DNA of 40,263 nucleotides from positions 1 through 40,263 of the forward strand of contig JAKSIC010000028.1 in assembly GCA_024399015.1 (NCBI GenBank), in the 5' to 3' direction. The DNA comes from Fibrobacter sp. GTDB lineage: Bacteria; Fibrobacterota; Fibrobacteria; Fibrobacterales; Fibrobacteraceae. Numbering within the stretch: position 1 is the first letter of the stretch; each line of letters opens with the position of its first letter. The notes under the pieces were generated by a model, which did no database searches, was not told where the DNA came from, and saw nothing but the letters and a program-made list of their open reading frames with translations. Positions 1-39,555 of the stretch are shown in pieces. Position numbers and translations under genes: made by a program.

Positions 1-51
1 GATAAAGAAAGTTGCAAAGTCTGGGACGAAAACGGAAATTTAAAGAAGTAA
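1..51 (+). CDS. C-terminal end of an upstream gene (partial)
   Basis: The first frame is open from base 1 to a TAA at 49-51 and encodes 16 residues ending CKVWDENGNLKK. The 5' end lies outside the window. A rho-independent terminator follows at 61-95, which is what one expects after a real plus-strand gene. The WDENGNLKK ending resembles the last turn of a MORN_2-type repeat (consensus-like Y/W-DENGKLK), but 16 residues are too few for a family call. Confidence 0.45.
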   Translation, partial: DKESCKVWDENGNLKK

Positions 52-60
52 AAAAACACA

Positions 61-95
61 AAAGATCTCGTCACACAAGACGAGATCTTTTTTTA
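61..95. terminator. Bidirectional rho-independent terminator
   Basis: A perfect 12-bp stem (61-72 with 79-90) closes a 6-nt loop and is followed by a T run on the plus strand. The minus strand also ends in T-rich sequence. It can serve both the truncated plus-strand gene at the left edge and dut, which converges on it. Confidence 0.85.
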
Positions 96-130
96 TCCAA
101 TCGCTCGTTTATTTCGCGCCGGTGCTGTTA

Positions 131-565
131 TTATTTCACGCCAGTGCTGCCGAAGCCACCGCGATCCTTGTCGGCTAACTCGCCTTCTTCAAATTCCAGC
201 GTAGGCTGGATTTCCATAATGCGGAACTGTGCGATACGGGAACCTTTTTCGATGGTTACATCTTCGGTGGCGTAGACCGGCATTTTCCACCAGTCGCCCT
301 TGCCGCAGTAGCTGGAATCAACGACGCCAACGGAATTGGTCTGCAAGATCTTAAAGTTCTTGAAAGTGGAGCTGCGGGGAGCCAGATGAGCTTCGTAGCC
401 TTCCGGCAACTTCATGGCAACGCCCAGGTGAATCAGCTTGAATTCGCCCTTCTTCAAGGTCACGGTTTCTGCAGCGCTAAGGTCAATCCAATCGGACTTT
501 CCGCCCACATACGTAAGGCGTGGGATGGTGTTGTCCAGATATTGGATAGTGATTTTCATTGCCAT
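131..565 (-). CDS. dut: dUTP diphosphatase (dUTPase)
   Basis: Hydrolyses dUTP to dUMP and pyrophosphate, keeping uracil out of DNA and supplying dUMP for thymidylate synthesis. The 144-aa length matches the trimeric dUTPase family. Visible family motifs: APRSSTF (motif II, about residues 62-68), [14 protein letters not shown] (motif III, substrate pocket), RIAQFRI (motif IV), and the Gly-rich C-terminal arm RGGFGSTG (motif V). The ATG at 565 has an AAAGG ribosome-binding site about 8 nt upstream; a second in-frame ATG lies at 559. The gene is monocistronic, ends near a bidirectional terminator, and has an unusual array of GTAC motif pairs in its upstream region (586-807). Confidence 0.95.
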
Positions 566-585
566 AAGAAGCCTTTTTGCATTTT

Positions 586-807
586 TAGGGTACCAACACG
601 CTTTTTATTTGCAATTTAGTACCCCAATTTTTACTTTATTCTAAAAAAATCTTGTTTATTGAACCTAATCTACATTCCACTAGGGTACCAACCCTGCTAA
701 TTTTCACGATTCGGTACCCGGAATCACCGACAAGCCTTCAAAAAACGATTACTTTGTTCACAAATCAAGGTACTAAAAAACAGTTTCTCACAACTCTAGT
801 ACCCCAT
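586..807. repeat. Three paired GTAC-centred inverted motifs with 29-bp spacing
   Basis: Six short motifs of consensus GGGTACYA or its complement occur in this 276-bp intergenic space, with GTAC cores at 590, 619, 685, 714, 770 and 799. They fall into three inverted pairs, and in every pair the two cores are exactly 29 bp apart. The 21-nt interiors are unrelated in sequence. Each pair could form a 6-7 bp hairpin in RNA or a paired protein-binding site in DNA. The array lies between the 3' end of the TrmJ-like gene and the start of dut, so it could be a dut operator array. No known family was recognised. Confidence 0.7.
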
Positions 808-841
808 TCCGCCATATTTCATCGTTTCTTGAACTGATTTT

Positions 842-1657
842 CTATTTTTTCTCTTCGGAGGCGTTGTTCGCTGCATCAGCAGAATCAGCAGCCTCTGCGG
901 CCTTTGCGGCTGCAGCCTTGGCGCGGTCTTCTGCCTGTTCCAAGCGAGCGGGCTTACCAGCCACATTGCGGAGCAAACCAAACAAAGCGGAAAGTTCGTT
1001 ACGAGTGGGATGCAGTCTCTGGAGCAAAGTATTCAGGAAGTTATCGCGCCATGCCTGATCGTGATACTGGCCAGTCAAATAGCGGTCCAAGAACTTCTTG
1101 AAACCGTTGATTTGGTCGATGGTTGCGGGAGCAGTTTCGCAGGCACCCTTGGAACCGCGCTTTGCACGGCCTTCGCCATTGGCCAAGGCGCCAGAACGGC
1201 AAAGTTCATAAAGGGAAATGGAAACTGCCTGACCCAAGTTCAAACTCATAAGGCCCGGCACCGGAATTTCGCACTGGTAGGTGCAAGCGTTCACTTCTTC
1301 AAGAGCGAGGCCGCAAGATTCACGACCAAACACCAGAGCGATGGTTCCTTCTTCGGGAAGCATTTCGGAAAGGTTCTGCACCATGCAATGCTTGATGGCA
1401 CTGCCAAAAATACGGCGGCTAAAAGCGATAGCGCAAGCACAGTCACCAATAGCTTCCTGGAAGGTATGCACAATCTTTGCATTGTCCAGAATGTCGTGGC
1501 TGTTGGCTGCAGTGTGGTAGGACTTTTCCATCACTTCGTTGCGCTTGGGGTACACAATGCAAAGTTCCGGCAAGGCGTAGCAGTGCATGGCGCGGGCAAC
1601 AAAGCCCACGTTGTGAGGATGTTCCGGTTCAACAAGTACTACTCTAAATTTTCGCAT
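842..1657 (-). CDS. TrmJ-like SpoU-family RNA 2'-O-methyltransferase
   Basis: A SPOUT-fold enzyme that would transfer a methyl group from S-adenosylmethionine to a ribose 2'-OH, most likely at tRNA position 32 if it is TrmJ. The three SpoU motifs are present in order: VEPEHPHNVGFVARAM (residues 9-24), VFGRESCGL (about 109-117) and MSLNLGQAVSISLYEL (about 136-151), which forms the knotted SAM site. The last 30 residues are an Ala/Glu-rich low-complexity tail beyond the usual family core. The ATG at 1657 has no clear Shine-Dalgarno, and a heptamer repeat array begins 7 bp upstream of it. Family membership is firm; the exact RNA target is inferred. Confidence 0.88.
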   Translation of the reverse strand: MRKFRVVLVEPEHPHNVGFVARAMHCYALPELCIVYPKRNEVMEKSYHTAANSHDILDNAKIVHTFQEAIGDCACAIAFSRRIFGSAIKHCMVQNLSEMLPEEGTIALVFGRESCGLALEEVNACTYQCEIPVPGLMSLNLGQAVSISLYELCRSGALANGEGRAKRGSKGACETAPATIDQINGFKKFLDRYLTGQYHDQAWRDNFLNTLLQRLHPTRNELSALFGLLRNVAGKPARLEQAEDRAKAAAAKAAEAADSADAANNASEEKK

Positions 1658-1664
1658 AACTAAT

Positions 1665-1694
1665 AGTGGTTAGTGGTTGGTGGTTAGTGGTTAG
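1665..1694. repeat. Heptamer tandem array, AGTGGTT type, upstream of the TrmJ-like gene
   Basis: Four consecutive 7-bp units (AGTGGTT, AGTGGTT, GGTGGTT, AGTGGTT) start 8 bp from the start codon of the TrmJ-like gene. An inverted partial copy lies at 1728-1747. The same unit family recurs at 18396 and 31790. Confidence 0.85.
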
Positions 1695-1727
1695 AAAAAA
1701 TAAAATGAATTCTATCAACATTTCTGC

Positions 1728-1747
1728 TTACTAACCACTAATCACTG
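1728..1747. repeat. Inverted partial copy of the AGTGGTT array
   Basis: On the minus strand this reads as AGTGATT, AGTGGTT, AGTAA units. CTAACCACTAA at 1731-1741 is perfectly complementary to TTAGTGGTTAG at 1684-1694, so an 11-bp stem with a 36-nt loop is possible. It lies between the 3' end of the nucleotidyltransferase gene and the array before the TrmJ-like gene. Confidence 0.8.
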
Positions 1748-1752
1748 TTTAC

Positions 1753-2703
1753 TTAAATCTTCCAGCTAAATCCCTTACCGCGGATTTCATTTTCCACAGT
1801 TTCGCCAGGTGCAAGTTCTGCACCATCAAAAAGTAACGTATTGTTCAGCGAAACACCTGCAGGAATCATCACGTTTGCTCCAATCACGGAATGCATCATC
1901 TTCAGACCCTTCCCGAAAGGAACATCGAGGAACATCAAGGGATACCTCTTGGAGCATTCCGGATGAATCCAGGAATCCACATCAAGCTCCTTCAGGCGGG
2001 CGTCACAGGCATCCTTCAAACCTTCGGGAGAACCCATATCGATCCAGGTGGCGTTCAGCTGGCTCATGTCCACAAAGGGCGGGCGACCAGCAGCAATTTC
2101 CTGCTTCCAGAATTCTCGAATATCGAATTCGCCATCCTTGATGCGGGCCAAAGCTTCGTCGCTATAATAAGACACACCGGAGAATGTGGCGGCACGACCT
2201 TCATCCAAGCCAAAGCGATCTGCAACACCATTCAAGCGACCATCTTCGCCCACACGGAAAGTATTCACCTTGGGGAAATCAACGGCAAGCAAAGCCACAC
2301 CCGGGGCGGCACTATTCTGCGCTCCAGCGGCAAAGGCTGCCTTGGCATTTTCAACGAAAGCCTTCAAGTCAAAACTGCAGTAGGCGTCGCCGTTCATAAT
2401 CAGCAAGCCACCGCGGTAACCTTCGTTATAAATTCTCTTTAGCGGACCAGCAGTTCCCAAAATTTCAGGTTCAACCCAAACCTTTTCAAAGCCCAGACGT
2501 TCACCTTCAACAACAATCTGATCGGCAAGGTAATGGGCATTGGCGTGCAAACGAACATCGCCAATAGCACGAGCCTTAATAGCCTGCTGTTCCAAAATGC
2601 TCTTGTCCACCACAGGAACCAGGGGCTTCGGCACATCGCTTGTAAGCGGGCGAAGTCGAGTTCCCAAACCGGCGGCAAGAATTAAAACATTCAATTGATC
2701 CAT
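1753..2703 (-). CDS. Sugar-1-phosphate nucleotidyltransferase (GT-A-like NTP transferase)
   Basis: Couples a sugar 1-phosphate to an NTP to give an NDP-sugar and pyrophosphate in the cytoplasm. The N-terminus has the family signature LAAGLGTRLRPLT followed by PKPLVPV (residues 9-31). GTAGPL and NGDA mark the nucleotide pocket and the metal-binding Asp. Residues after about 240 look like a short left-handed beta-helix segment, as in GlmU- and ManC-like proteins. At 316 aa it resembles MurU or mannose-1-phosphate guanylyltransferase-like enzymes; substrate cannot be fixed from sequence alone. A second, distinct member of the superfamily is at 6200-7123. The ATG at 2703 lies just beyond the terminator of the barrel-protein gene, so it probably has its own promoter. 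Confidence 0.85.
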   Translation of the reverse strand: MDQLNVLILAAGLGTRLRPLTSDVPKPLVPVVDKSILEQQAIKARAIGDVRLHANAHYLADQIVVEGERLGFEKVWVEPEILGTAGPLKRIYNEGYRGGLLIMNGDAYCSFDLKAFVENAKAAFAAGAQNSAAPGVALLAVDFPKVNTFRVGEDGRLNGVADRFGLDEGRAATFSGVSYYSDEALARIKDGEFDIREFWKQEIAAGRPPFVDMSQLNATWIDMGSPEGLKDACDARLKELDVDSWIHPECSKRYPLMFLDVPFGKGLKMMHSVIGANVMIPAGVSLNNTLLFDGAELAPGETVENEIRGKGFSWKI

Positions 2704-2741
2704 CGGGATAAAAAAATAGAAAACCTCGCCTTAAGGCGAGG
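2704..2741 (-). terminator. Rho-independent terminator of the barrel-protein gene
   Basis: A perfect palindrome at 2724-2741 (7-bp arms CCTCGCC and GGCGAGG around TTAA) is followed on the minus strand by a T-rich tract at 2706-2722. It lies 6 bp past the end of the gene at 2748-3701. Confidence 0.85.
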
Positions 2742-2747
2742 ATTCTG

Positions 2748-3701
2748 CTAGAACTTGTGATCCCAAATCAAGGCGATTCTATAGAAGGACCATTCGCGTC
2801 CAGTCTTCACAAGCAACGGTTCCTCAGAAGACTTTTCGTGAGGTGTTGCAAAGCTACGATCGCCTTCAATAGTGAACAAAGTCTTAAGACCATTCTTGTC
2901 GTTCAGCTTGAAATCAAGGAGCAGGCTCAAATCAATCCACATAAATTCGCCATCAAAGGTTTTTCCAGTTTTGCGGATGCCCTTATCAAAATCGGAGCGA
3001 TCGAAATGGCCATAGAATTCAGCCATAAAGCCCACCATCTGCAAAACCAAGGGCATCTTGTAACCAAGGACACCTGTCACATAATACTGCCAACCGTTGG
3101 CTTCGCCAGGGATTACCTGCCATTCCCAGATATCGCCATCGTCAACGCCGGTAATACCCTTATAAATCCACTGGTAGGTGGCAAGCATCACCACATGGGT
3201 CCAGTCACCAGGAACCAGGGCGCCAACATCGAACTGGAATGTAGCGGAAGCCCACAAGTCATAGTAATAGTGAGCAAACGGAGTCAAGGCCTCGTACTCC
3301 TGCTTGCTAAAGTTGTAGACGCTCATGCCGTCGAAGCCAAGAGGATTCCAGCCCGTACCAACGGAGCCACCAGCACCAAACACCAGGAACGGCACCGGAG
3401 TAAACTCAGCCTTCAACTGGGGACGAATGGACAAGGGGGAAAGTTCAAAACTTCCAGTCAATTCCACGTTGGCATCCTTCACCAGCCAATGGGCTCCGAG
3501 AGGCGTGGGAATGGTGTACTTTGCGTTAAAAGTCGTAGCTGCCTTTGCGCCATTGAAGGGTCCGGCCACAGAAGCAAAGTGGTCTTCACCAGGTTCAATT
3601 TCGCGTTCCAGGTAATCGGCGGCGGCCGTAGTCAGAGAATAGCTGAATTCTCCGGCAAAAACTGCGGCAGGAATCAAAAGCAAGGGTAGCAGACGTTTCA
3701 A
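2748..3701 (-). CDS. Putative outer-membrane beta-barrel protein
   Basis: A signal peptide is visible (KRLLPLLLIPAAVFA, cleavage likely before GEFSYS). The rest is rich in alternating aromatic and hydrophobic strands with Gly turns, and the chain ends in a terminal Phe (IALIWDHKF), typical of barrels inserted by BamA. I chose the TTG at 3701 because AGGAG sits 8 nt upstream and the signal peptide then starts correctly; the frame is open 14 codons further upstream, but that extension would precede the signal peptide with non-typical residues. Mature length is about 300 aa. No family recognised; a porin-like or structural role is inferred from topology only. The gene diverges from the AsmA-like gene at 3808. 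Confidence 0.7.
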   Translation of the reverse strand: MKRLLPLLLIPAAVFAGEFSYSLTTAAADYLEREIEPGEDHFASVAGPFNGAKAATTFNAKYTIPTPLGAHWLVKDANVELTGSFELSPLSIRPQLKAEFTPVPFLVFGAGGSVGTGWNPLGFDGMSVYNFSKQEYEALTPFAHYYYDLWASATFQFDVGALVPGDWTHVVMLATYQWIYKGITGVDDGDIWEWQVIPGEANGWQYYVTGVLGYKMPLVLQMVGFMAEFYGHFDRSDFDKGIRKTGKTFDGEFMWIDLSLLLDFKLNDKNGLKTLFTIEGDRSFATPHEKSSEEPLLVKTGREWSFYRIALIWDHKF

Positions 3702-3794
3702 AACCAAATCTCCTAAAAATTGTAAGTAAAATATAACAATCAAAGAGAACGGCTAGTTGAACAACATTACAAATAAATAAAAAAACAATCTTGC

Positions 3795-3807
3795 TATAAT
3801 TAAAACC
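3795..3807 (+). promoter_or_regulatory. -10 hexamer 7 nt before the ATG (likely leaderless start)
   Basis: A perfect TATAAT at 3795-3800 is separated from the ATG at 3808 by seven bases, so the predicted transcription start falls on or next to the start codon. No Shine-Dalgarno sequence and no good -35 hexamer are present. Confidence 0.55.
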
Positions 3808-6150
3808 ATGAAGAAGCGTTACATAGTCCTGATTGTCCTCGCTGCACTTTTCATCCTCCTCATTGCAGCATTGAAAATTGGTCCCACCATTGCAAAGAAC
3901 TATGTGGTCAGCCACTCCGAAGAGTTGATCGGCCGCAAGATGAACATTGCAAGCGTGAACTTCTCCCCCACCACATTCACCGTGGAAGTGGACAGCTTCG
4001 CAATTTTTGAACCCGATGGTTCCACACCGTTTGTAGCCTTCGAAAAGTTCCGTATTAACGTGAACCCCACCCGACTCCTGGCAAAGGAAATCAGCGTTAG
4101 CGAAATCTACCTGAAGGGTCTCTACACCAGAGTCATCCAGAACGGAGAACGTTTTAACTTCAGCGACATTTTGGATAAGCTTGCCGAGGGCGATACCACC
4201 GCCATCGACACTACCGCTAGCGCAGTCGATTCTACCGCTGCCGACACGACCTCTGCAGATTCCGCACAGGCCCTGAACCTGAACCCGTCTGAATCCTTGG
4301 GCGGTTTAAGCATCGCCGTAGAGAACATCGTTCTCGAAAAGGGCAACATCATTTATCAGGACCAGAAAGTCGGCTCCAAGTTCCACCTTCAGGACTTCTC
4401 CGTAGAAATTCCCGCAGTCTACTTTGCCAACCAGGACACCGACATCGGAGTCACCCTCAAGTTTGCCGATGGCGGCGACCTGAACGTAAAGGTTCTCTTC
4501 AACATGGAAACCCAGGGTTTCAACGTTTCCGTAGGTCTGAACCAGTTCGCCCTGGCCTGCATCAAGCCCTACCTGAAGGACTTCATCAACTACAAGGATT
4601 TCAGCGGAGCCCTCAACATCCACCTGAACGTCCAGGGTAACGTCAACGACGTTCTCTCCTCCAACGTCAGCGGAAACGTCAACCTTTCTGACATTGTCCT
4701 TACGGAAACCTCCGGCAAGACCATCGGCGTAAACCGCGTAGACGTGGGCATCGCCAAGGCCAATCTCAACGAGAACGATTTCAACGTGGACTCCGTCGTC
4801 GTGGACGGCGCTTTCGCGCATCTGGATTTGCTTAAGGGCGGAAAGACCAACATCGATATTTTGCTGAACCCCAAGGGAGCCGCCGCAGACACAACCGCAG
4901 CCGTAAGCGCAACGGTTCTGGACACCACAACGGTGATCGTCCCTGACGCACCGGCAGACTCCTCCGCCCAGGTTGCAGCCCCGGCCGAACAGAAACCCGC
5001 AGAAAAAGAAAAGCCCCTGAAGTTCGTGCTGAAGAAACTGCAGGTCAAGAACACCAGCGTTTCCGCCAACGACCAGACCATCAAGAAGCCTTTCTCCTAC
5101 ACCGTCAGCAACATTAACGTCAACGGCAGCAACATCAATTTCAACACTCCCTGCACAGTGAATGTAGGCGCCTCCTTCCCAGGTGGCGGCACCCTCTCCC
5201 TCAAGTACAAGGGCGCCCTTTCTGACATCAGCACCATGGACATTTACCTCAGCGTAAAGAACCTGGCCCTGAGCCACTTCTCCCCCTACAGCTACCATTT
5301 CACCGGCTACCCCATCAGTTCCGGCACCTTGGCCTTCGCCAGCGAAAACAAGCTGAACAAGTGGGACATCGACAGCAAGAACACCATCGACATTTACAAC
5401 ATCGACGTAGGCGACAAGGATCCCAACTCTGAACCGGAATTCAACGTACCCATGAAAATTGGCCTGTACATTCTGAAGGACAAGGATGAAAAAATCCAGT
5501 TCGACGTTCCGGTAAAGGGCAACGTCCAGGATCCGGAATTCTCCTACGGAAAGATTATCTGGAAAACCGTCATGAACCTGCTCATCAAGGTGGCACTCTC
5601 TCCGCTGAAGCTGGTGGGCAACCTGGCCACCTCCGGCGCAAACGCCTTGGGCATGGACCTGGGCAAGAACGATGAAGTGGTCATCGACCCCTTGAGCAAC
5701 AATCTGGAAAGCGAACAGTACGCCAAGGCCATCAAGATGGTAGAAGCCGTCGTCAAGGACCCCAAGCTGAAGCTGAACTTCGTGCAGTCCTTCCCGCTGA
5801 AGAAGACCGTGGAAGCCTACAAGACCCGCAAGCTGAAGACCGACTACTACATGTCCACCAGCGGCAAGAAGACCTTGAACGAACTTGATGAAAAGAGCAT
5901 CATCGACATCAAGGATGACGACAGCCTCTACGTTGCCTACGCCAAGGAACATGCCGCAGCACTGGATCGCAAGACTCTTGAAAAGGAACTTCTGGAAAAG
6001 GCAAACAAGCGCAACCAGGAACTTCTGAAGACATTGCAGCAGCAGAAGGGCGTGACCAAGAAGAACGTCACCATTACTACGGCGCCTCGTAGCGAGCTGG
6101 CCAAGCACAAGGGAAAACCTGCATATAAGGTCCAACTGGACGTTCAATAA
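3808..6150 (+). CDS. AsmA-like / DUF748 envelope protein
   Basis: A 780-aa protein anchored by one N-terminal membrane segment (residues about 5-25), with the rest predicted periplasmic. The start of the soluble part (GRKMNIASVNFSPTTFTVEVDSF) and the C-terminal KIGLYILKD / FDVPVKGNVQDPEFSYG pattern are typical of the DUF748/AsmA superfamily, relatives of TamB and YhdP that are thought to move lipids or assist outer-membrane biogenesis. Two Thr/Ala/Asp-rich linkers (about residues 128-150 and 350-400) separate beta-rich blocks. It is monocistronic, with a likely leaderless promoter and a strong terminator. Superfamily assignment is good; the molecular role is inferred. Confidence 0.82.
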   Translation: MKKRYIVLIVLAALFILLIAALKIGPTIAKNYVVSHSEELIGRKMNIASVNFSPTTFTVEVDSFAIFEPDGSTPFVAFEKFRINVNPTRLLAKEISVSEIYLKGLYTRVIQNGERFNFSDILDKLAEGDTTAIDTTASAVDSTAADTTSADSAQALNLNPSESLGGLSIAVENIVLEKGNIIYQDQKVGSKFHLQDFSVEIPAVYFANQDTDIGVTLKFADGGDLNVKVLFNMETQGFNVSVGLNQFALACIKPYLKDFINYKDFSGALNIHLNVQGNVNDVLSSNVSGNVNLSDIVLTETSGKTIGVNRVDVGIAKANLNENDFNVDSVVVDGAFAHLDLLKGGKTNIDILLNPKGAAADTTAAVSATVLDTTTVIVPDAPADSSAQVAAPAEQKPAEKEKPLKFVLKKLQVKNTSVSANDQTIKKPFSYTVSNINVNGSNINFNTPCTVNVGASFPGGGTLSLKYKGALSDISTMDIYLSVKNLALSHFSPYSYHFTGYPISSGTLAFASENKLNKWDIDSKNTIDIYNIDVGDKDPNSEPEFNVPMKIGLYILKDKDEKIQFDVPVKGNVQDPEFSYGKIIWKTVMNLLIKVALSPLKLVGNLATSGANALGMDLGKNDEVVIDPLSNNLESEQYAKAIKMVEAVVKDPKLKLNFVQSFPLKKTVEAYKTRKLKTDYYMSTSGKKTLNELDEKSIIDIKDDDSLYVAYAKEHAAALDRKTLEKELLEKANKRNQELLKTLQQQKGVTKKNVTITTAPRSELAKHKGKPAYKVQLDVQ

Positions 6151-7700: not shown

Positions 7701-8657
7701 TTGAGCAACAACTCTAATCGTCTAGACGCCTACATGGCCTTTTTGGGAGTGGAGCGAAACCTTTCGCCCATGACCATCCAGAGCTACCAGGAGGACCTGC
7801 GACACTTTATCGCATGGCTAGACGACAATGGAATTGATTTGAAGGAATTGACTCCCCAGAAGTTGGACGAGTTTCTGACCGCGGCAGCAAGCCAGGTTAG
7901 CGCCGGCAACGACGGCAAATCCGCCAGCCGCGACGGGGATGCTGCCGTCTATGCAGCCACCAGCATCGCAAGGCATTTTTCCAGTCTCCGCGGGTTCCTG
8001 AAGTACATGCAGAACCAGGGCGAATACGATTTCAGCACCGAAAGCATGCTGGCCACACCACGCCTCGGCCACTACCTCCCCCAGTACTTGACCCGCGACG
8101 AAATCGACAGCGTTTTCGAGAGCGCCGCCCGCGGCAAGAACCCGCTACGAGACACTGCCCTTTTCGAATTGATGTACAGCGCCGGACTCCGCATTTCGGA
8201 AACCTTGAACATCAAGTTGGCTCAACTGGATTTGGACAACGAATGGCTAACCCCCATCGGCAAGGGCAACAAGCAGCGTCTGATTCCTCTGGGCAGCAAG
8301 GCCAAGGAAAACCTTCGTGAATGGATCGAGCGAGGCCGCCCCCTCACCCACCCGGAAACAGATAACGTAATATTAAATTCTCGCGGAAAACCCATGAGTC
8401 GCATGGGGGCCTGGAAAATTGTGCAACAGCATACGCTCCACCTGACCAAGCAAGTTTCACCACACACCTTTAGGCACAGCTTCGCCACACACTGCCTAGA
8501 AGCGGGAATGGACCTCCGCGTTTTGCAGGAACTTCTGGGACATGCCGACATCAGCACCACCCAGATCTACACCCACATCGACAAAGAATTCATCAAGCAG
8601 GAACACAAGCAGTTCCATCCACGAGAAGTGGCAGAACGGGAATCACCAAAAAAATAA
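7701..8657 (+). CDS. Tyrosine recombinase, XerC/XerD family
   Basis: A site-specific recombinase, probably the chromosome-dimer-resolving Xer protein acting at dif. All catalytic residues are visible (numbering from 7701): Arg164 in SAGLRISE, Lys191 in GKGNKQR, His255 and Arg258 in HTFRHSF, His281 in LGHADIS, and the nucleophile Tyr290 in IYTHID. The N-terminal SAM-like core-binding domain (FLGVERNLSPMTIQSYQEDLRHF) is present with a short Gly/Ser/Asp-rich insertion near residues 65-82. I prefer the TTG at 7701 (weak GGA upstream); the frame is open to a TTG at 7668, but that start lies inside a heptamer array. XerC and XerD cannot be told apart here. Confidence 0.9.
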   Translation: MSNNSNRLDAYMAFLGVERNLSPMTIQSYQEDLRHFIAWLDDNGIDLKELTPQKLDEFLTAAASQVSAGNDGKSASRDGDAAVYAATSIARHFSSLRGFLKYMQNQGEYDFSTESMLATPRLGHYLPQYLTRDEIDSVFESAARGKNPLRDTALFELMYSAGLRISETLNIKLAQLDLDNEWLTPIGKGNKQRLIPLGSKAKENLREWIERGRPLTHPETDNVILNSRGKPMSRMGAWKIVQQHTLHLTKQVSPHTFRHSFATHCLEAGMDLRVLQELLGHADISTTQIYTHIDKEFIKQEHKQFHPREVAERESPKK

Positions 8658-37842: not shown

Positions 37843-39555
37843 ATGTACAAGATTTCCAGAAAAGATTACGCTCAAATGTACGGTCCCACCGTAGGCGACC
37901 GCATCCGTCTTGCAGATACCTCCCTTATTGTAGAAGTAGAAAAGGATTATTGCGTTTACGGTGACGAAGCAAAATTCGGCGGTGGAAAATCACTGCGAGA
38001 TGGCATGGGCCAGGCAGCGCCCTTTAAGGATGACGAATGCCTAGACACCGTCATTACAAGCGCACTTGTCATTGATGCAACTGGAATTTTCAAGGCCGAC
38101 ATAGGCATTAAAGATGGCAAAATTGCTGGCATCGGAAAAGCCGGCAACCCCCACATGATGGATGGCGTTACCCCAGGCATGATCATCGGCAGTTCCACCG
38201 AAGCCATTGCTGGCGAAGGCCTGATCTTGACTGCCGGCGGTATCGACACCCACATTCACTTTATCTCTCCCACACAAGTTCGTACAGCTCTTTATAGCGG
38301 CGTCACCACCATGATTGGTGGCGGCACAGGCCCTGCTGACGGAACCAACGCTACCACTTGTACGCCCGGCGCATTCAACATCCACAAAATGCTGGAAGCT
38401 GCAGAAGATTTGCCTGTCAACTTAGCCTTCCTCGGCAAGGGAAATGGATCCTGTGCAGAAACCTTGAGAGAACAGGTGCGTGCAGGAGCTGCAGGCCTGA
38501 AACTTCACGAAGACTGGGGTTCCACTCCCAAGGCTATTGACACTTGCCTAGGCGTCGCGGATGAATTCGACGTCCAGGTTTCCATCCACACGGATACATT
38601 AAACGAAGGCGGCTTCGTAGAAGATACCATCTCAGCCTTTAAGGGACGCACCATCCACACCTACCATACGGAAGGTGCTGGCGGTGGACACGCTCCCGAC
38701 ATCATTCGCGCAGCCGCCTTCGAAAACGTCTTGCCATCTTCAACAAATCCGACAATGCCCTTCACCAGAAATACCATTGACGAACATTTGGACATGTTGA
38801 TGGTATGCCACCATCTGGACAAGAACAATAAAGAAGATGTGGCTTTTGCGGATTCAAGAATTCGTCCGGAAACCATCGCCGCCGAAGACATTCTTCACGA
38901 CATGGGAATTTTCTCCATGATGAGTTCTGATTCTCAGGCCATGGGCCGCGTAGGTGAAGTGATCACCCGCACTTGGCAAACCGCAGACAAAATGAAAAAA
39001 CAGCGCGGCACTCTCGAAACAGACTGCGAACGCAACGACAACAATCGCATCAAGCGTTACATTGCCAAGTATACCATCAACCCGGCCATTACCCACGGCA
39101 TTTCAAAGTACGTTGGTTCCGTAGAAGTTGGCAAAATCGCAGACCTTGTCCTTTGGCGTCCCGACATGTTCGGAGCCAAGCCCGAAATGATTCTGAAAAA
39201 CGGTTTTATTTGCGCATCCAAAATGGGCGATGCCAATGCCAGCATTCCCACCCCAGAGCCAGTTGTGTATACCGATATGTTCGGTGCCCACGGCAAGGCT
39301 TTAGCAAAAACCTGCATCACCTTCGTTTCGGAATACGCTTTTGCAAATGGCATCAAGGAAGAACTGGGCCTCGAAAGAATGGTCCTCCCCGTAAGCAACT
39401 GTCGAAACATCGGCAAGAAGGACATGGTTCACAACGACCGCATCGCAAAGCTGGAAGTAGATCCTGAAACCTACACTGTAAAGGTGGATGGTGAACGAAT
39501 CACCTGCGAAGCCGCCACAGAACTTTCTCTTGCAAGAAGGTACTTCCTTTTCTAA
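37843..39555 (+). CDS. ureC: Urease alpha (catalytic) subunit
   Basis: 570 aa, full length. Hydrolyses urea to ammonia and carbamate at a di-nickel centre. All key residues are present: His137 and His139 (GGIDTHIHF), the carbamylated Lys220 (GLKLHEDWG), His222, His249, His275, Asp363 (SSDSQAMGR), and the flap Cys322-His323 (MVCHHLD). Each is exactly three residues later than in Klebsiella UreC. The ATG at 37843 has GGGAG 6 nt upstream; the open extension to 37804 lies within ureAB and is rejected. Confidence 0.97.

Follow-up and report, generated by a model that had tools for sequence, protein, structure and literature searches.

Amongst the closest described counterparts to the arrays reported herein is the REPIN-RAYT system, composed of repetitive extragenic palindromes and their tyrosine transposases (PMC3116915). 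Several features are common to this and to the Fibrobacter system, including extragenic palindromes that are dispersed (here as 40 dispersed arrays between genes), classes of palindrome that each match one of several single-copy genes, the placement of arrays beside the gene and the presence of several classes within one genome. The REPIN-RAYT partner is, however, a Y1 HUH transposase, whilst that in Fibrobacter is a PD-(D/E)XK protein, and the Fibrobacter units differ in being spaced inverted half-sites that are grouped in threes and phased to the helix. In addition, REPIN-RAYT palindromes are high in copy number and near-identical, whereas Fibrobacter has ~ten or fewer arrays per arm type per genome, with spacers that are ~57–77 % identical.

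A second likeness is to free-standing homing endonucleases of the EDxHD / PD-(D/E)XK kind (e.g. I-Bth0305I), in that the Fibrobacter family gene appears to adjoin its likely site, and that copies of the array flank some family genes on both sides. Unlike homing endonucleases, the candidate sites are multi-copy chromosomal arrays, many of them gene-less, no intron or intein is seen, and the Fibrobacter protein has no sequence family match. The nuclease domain of PDC-S68 and HEAT_CxxC_PDDEXK is homologous to the C-terminal half of the Fibrobacter family, although PDC-S68 is ~1,200 aa in length, as opposed to 276 aa for the Fibrobacter protein, which has an N-terminal domain of its own as well as cognate arrays. 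Finally, the res sites of Tn3-family elements contain three resolvase dimer subsites, and the arrays resemble these in presenting three dimer-type sites able to form one complex; they differ in enzyme class and in subsite spacings, which here are mostly 5–10 turns, and no transposon is seen. The open-access literature yielded nothing relevant on such Fibrobacter arrays, or on nuclease-linked palindrome arrays, and a dispersed element of this kind seems to be previously undescribed.

The window considered here (the whole 40,263 nt stretch of a Fibrobacter sp. contig that was analysed) contains three palindromes in the 276 bp intergenic region between dut and trmJ (566..841, no strand), which carries the array with no gene of its own. 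The flanking genes are dut (131..565, minus strand), encoding a dUTPase-like protein of 144 aa, and a trmJ-like, RNA-methyltransferase-like gene (842..1657, minus strand), the stop of which lies 37 bp from the start of the array; names for these and the other window genes were given from sequence alone, with that of dut also drawn from the first-pass annotation. Each unit is 37 bp long and strandless, with unit 1 (588..624) reading GGGTACCAAC-N17-TTTAGTACCC, unit 2 (683..719) GGGTACCAAC-N17-TTCGGTACCC and unit 3 (768..804) AGGTACTAAA-N17-TCTAGTACCC. The GTAC cores were confirmed at 590/619, 685/714 and 770/799, every pair 29 bp apart, and these pairs form the cores of the palindromes. No GTAC pairs at 29 bp spacing besides these three occur in the window, and GGTAC-N25-GTACC is found 3 times within 215 bp, compared with 0.036 occurrences expected in the whole window. 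From centre to centre, units 1 and 2 are separated by 95 bp (9 turns), and units 2 and 3 by 85 bp (8 turns). The spacers additionally carry two WACAAASTAAY-like accessory boxes, GAATAAAGTAA (631..641, minus strand) and GAACAAAGTAA (749..759), the second on the same strand as the first.

Beyond the array, positions 1660–1752 of the window contain a TTAGTGGTTAGTGG-type repeat, degenerate in sequence and paired with an inverted partner further downstream; it looks like a separate repeat family, and a stretch resembling it is found upstream of dut at two other loci (L013 and L042). The window also harbours a tyrosine-recombinase-like gene (7770–8657) and a urease-alpha-like gene (37843–39555).

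With regard to distribution within the same genome, the arm GGGTACYAAA-N16..18-TTTRGTACCC is found again between genes elsewhere (C1:525606, C1:528721, C1:528892, C22:32394 and C40:98061), and hence the array is not dut-specific. A genome-wide check of the motif gave a divided outcome: the bare GGTAC-N25-GTACC was rejected as a signal, with 6 matches and no excess over the 6 of a reversed control, whilst the extended form with flexible spacing, GGGTACYA-N10..40-TRGTACC, is strongly non-random, with 12 strand matches in this genome and 0 in the control. The strict arm pattern is present in 14 of 80 Fibrobacter genomes (species) as well as in a single additional genome of the taxonomic family, and its units are mostly grouped in threes, sometimes in fours. 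Conservation upstream of dut, the other half of that check, was not borne out across Fibrobacter, as the array is absent from that position in most relatives.

The first-pass annotation took the 29 bp core spacing to be fixed, which holds for the three pairs of the window and fails across the family, where the range is 28–30 bp; the strictly constant quantity is instead the distance from unit to unit, which is a whole number of helical turns. For GGGTAC arrays the centre distances are 62.5–63, 73.5–74.5, 83.5–86.5, 94.5–96, 106.5 and 179–180.5 bp, with a best period of 10.6 bp (R 0.94, intercept 0.02). Other arm families give a period of 10.50 bp (R 0.90; 119 spacings, GGGTAC families excluded), which none of 5000 randomised sets equalled, the automatic array detector having required unit distances of 50–225 bp with no phase imposed. 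Since unit centres lie n × 10.5 bp apart, the signal acts as double-stranded DNA, and the whole-turn distances between centres would allow every unit to be bound from the same side of the helix. The original suggestion that geometry is selected, as in a paired DNA-binding site, is thereby supported, with inverted half-sites, 10.5 bp phasing and a likely cognate protein all in keeping with it.

More than 20 arm sequences occur across the family. In a species with a 98.6 % identical dut (L009), the trmJ–dut gap carries palindromes with GGACTCCA arms, and when 400 kb of genome G032 was scanned generically for inverted repeats with shared arms, further arm types such as GCAGACYAAA, GGGGCATATAAA and TAGGACTAAA came to light; the same scan over 400 kb of the window's own genome produced no convincing further array. 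Two tRNA-linked hairpins returned by the generic scan (L185 and L220) were set aside as perfect hairpins of a different type. In many spacers WACAAASTAAY boxes have set positions, close to the first and last units, and they lie on the gene strand in nearly every case. At a further locus (L010) the trmJ–dut gap contains a GTCATTCTGAACGAAGTGAAGAATCCAG-like repeat instead of an array, and at two loci upstream of a family gene (L250 and L251) the TAGGACTAAA arrays are built as tandem repeats of a 201 bp unit, present two to three times, in which half-sites are spaced at 32 bp and alternate in strand.

The same protein family is encoded beside arrays in four genomes. Its members (276 aa) comprise an N-terminal coiled-coil/beta-tip domain and a C-terminal PD-(D/E)XK domain, and searches of Pfam and NCBIfam with the protein gave no match, including none to a Pfam transposase. 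The C-terminal half is homologous to PADLOC PDC-S68 in 21/21 members and to HEAT_CxxC_PDDEXK in 10/21 (E-values of 6e-30 and 9e-6, respectively), whilst the PDB and Pfam provided no sequence match for the nuclease domain; RxRSKSE, PDF and WEH are invariant amongst the 21 aligned members. In the predicted structure (pLDDT 90), a restriction-endonuclease-like domain comes after a helical hairpin that has a three-stranded tip, and the predicted fold of this domain matches the I-Bth0305I catalytic domain with a Z-score of 8.8 (89 residues, 2.5 Å), a value tied with other rows and near the generic level. For the N-terminal fold no assignment is claimed, as matches were to generic coiled coils alone: with the full model, the coiled coil scored a Z of 8.4–8.8 to TasH, a Tas protein of the TIGR-Tas systems, prefoldin and Rad50 being tied with it, and TasH was not among the matches listed for the N-domain by itself.

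The family has approximately 130 matches, spread over 50 of 80 Fibrobacter genomes; a few of these matches are large proteins that share the nuclease domain alone. Outside of Fibrobacter, a phylum-wide search located full-length members in a single genome, belonging to the same taxonomic family (G108), where arrays are also present. In virus, plasmid and phage collections, matches are mainly to the C-terminal domain, often within records annotated as AAA-family ATPases. A near-full-length homologue with no phased array lies at 3048–3836 of MT839528.1 (L408), a human-gut contig labelled as phage (an UNVERIFIED record), on which ABC-transporter-like and leucine-rich-repeat-like genes are also present. 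In the genome of the window, a family member is situated outside the window beside miaB (G000:C40:96929-97756), next to a GGGTACYAAA array. This protein is the likely partner of the window array, and its N-terminal domain probably reads the GGGTACYAAA arms. TIGR02147 regulators were rejected as the cognate protein, since none of the 26 in this genome is beside a comparable array (one adjoins an AT-rich pair).

The association of gene and array is extensive, with a phased shared-arm array found within 750–900 bp of 82/90 member genes (66 upstream, 9 downstream and 7 both), or 84/90 if two identified by eye (L228 and L229) are counted. When the upstream side only is considered, arrays accompany 73/90 family genes and 10/511 control genes (Fisher P = 1e-65), a contrast that is understated because some of the ten controls are themselves arrays of this system. 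For 56 non-redundant members, the correlation between arm similarity and domain identity is r 0.53 for the N-domain and 0.40 for the C-domain; in partial Mantel tests the arms retain a correlation of 0.38 with the N-domain given the C-domain, and of −0.05 with the C-domain given the N-domain. Natural exchanges provide further comparisons: two alleles at the miaB locus (L223 and L226) have a near-identical C-terminal half and different N-domains, with arrays of GGGTACYAAA and GGRCTCC, respectively, whilst three members (L226, L228 and L229) have N-domain and arm type in common and a different C-terminal half. GGRCTCC arrays are found in 4/4 genomes with the matching N-domain, compared with 3/76 others (P = 2e-5). 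By these associations, arm similarity follows the N-terminal domain, and not the nuclease domain.

Alignment shows the dispersed arrays to be copies of gene-side arrays, full-length and diverged. Those of G032 align over their full length to the gene-side array of G063 (76.6 % over 274 bp, 68 % over 294 bp and 64 % over 277 bp), and none of 240 shuffled targets aligned at the length of these matches. The window array has weak similarity to the array beside the family gene in its own genome (G000:C40, L125 2880–3097), at 58 % over 231 bp (E-value 2e-5). Four genomes (G032, G007, G021 and G011) contain GGGTACY arrays with no detected family member beside such arms. The close relative G059 is without two of the G032 arrays, and the flanks there have 4 bp between them or a 4 bp overlap, in comparison to ~350–390 bp in G032; at the first of the two sites G018 likewise has a short gap. 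A single junction displays a possible 4 bp duplication (GCCG), which may be microhomology. Insertion of arrays in G032 is the simpler reading of these empty sites, with deletion in G059 possible. Seven family genes sit between two arrays in direct repeat that are 80–98 % identical, the top pair being 97.6 % identical over 335 bp.

There is good support for the window feature being one array of this protein-linked family, and we consider it very probable. We also lean, somewhat beyond an even judgement, towards the family being a mobile, REPIN- or homing-like system, of which the window feature would be a gene-less ('solo') copy. From the patterns described above we infer binding, dimer stoichiometry, cutting and movement, such that protein dimers would bind each palindrome and, being phased, would assemble into one nucleoprotein complex; the nuclease would then cut at or near such arrays, and repair or transposition would copy the array, either alone or together with the gene, into new intergenic places. 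Recombination between two gene-flanking arrays could likewise give rise to solo arrays such as that of the window. Rather more tentatively, at a little under even likelihood, the family may represent a hitherto unknown class of element that spreads itself, its nuclease recognising the phased arrays through an exchangeable DNA-reading domain, with domain swaps creating new specificities to which the arrays across the chromosome change to match.

A regulator, in which the N-terminal domain represses its own gene via the upstream array and controls dut and others via the dispersed arrays, with the nuclease domain kept for a side role, is the main rival and is unlikely by our assessment, although several observations favour it. 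Arrays lie upstream of family genes in the proportion given above, as operators would, integral-turn spacing is typical of cooperative repressors, and the accessory boxes keep to set places on the gene strand. Moreover, the dut locus and a glycoside-hydrolase-like locus retain arrays at the same place in both G000 and G039, with arms that differ between the two species and in each case match the resident protein. Such differences could be either in-place arm change of old arrays or places that were hit twice, and they fit co-evolving regulatory sites as well as repeated insertion. Against regulation stands the placement of the dispersed arrays, which for the 40 with resolved neighbours is tandem in 25 cases, convergent in 11 and divergent in 4. 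Intergenic regions of 200–900 bp in 800 kb of two genomes served as background (62 tandem, 19 convergent and 37 divergent), neighbour genes being called by a simple hexamer method. Divergent promoter regions are accordingly depleted (4/40 vs 37/118, P = 0.007), with some of the 40 arrays orthologous between genomes and thus not fully independent; the convergent excess amongst dispersed arrays was not significant (P = 0.16). It also counts against a regulator that certain family genes have the array downstream only, that neighbours of dispersed arrays look functionally unrelated, that nuclease motifs are invariant, and that dut arrays are mostly missing in relatives. Control of dut, as first proposed from the position of the array, is therefore unsupported, with arrays of the same arms near unrelated genes and divergent promoter regions avoided, and we regard dut regulation by the array as disfavoured.

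Less probable again is that the arrays are chromosome-organising or defence-linked sites, i.e. fixed landing arrays that hold or restrain the nuclease or mark self DNA, and are not mobile. The closest named relatives of the nuclease domain are indeed candidate defence proteins (PDC-S68), the arrays are intergenic and few per genome, and exchange of specificity domains resembles that of restriction systems; however, same-place arrays vary between close relatives, some genomes have arrays with no detected matching gene, and the dispersed arrays appear as copies of gene-side arrays. It is very improbable that the units act in transcripts as stem–loops with conserved stems and free loops, the hairpin family raised in the first-pass annotation, given that, whilst the arms are complementary and changes are matched on both sides at 16/46 deviating core positions (a count that mixes arm families), one-sided deviations are commoner (29/46), helical phasing at 10.5 bp belongs to duplex DNA and has no reason in single-stranded RNA, units are found upstream and downstream of genes as well as between convergent ones, and an Rfam search of positions 1–3000 of the window returned no family at gathering score.

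With these comparisons, a protein family that has no Pfam or NCBIfam entry, and more than 100 members in one genus, is now linked to its likely DNA sites. The more than 20 natural arm sequences, together with natural domain swaps, offer material for reading a recognition code. Should the mobile reading be true, the Fibrobacter system would be an analogue of REPIN-RAYT that uses a different enzyme. It would also provide, possibly along with a new set of sequence-specific nucleases, a clear example from a single genus of joint change in a DNA-reading domain and in its sites on the chromosome.
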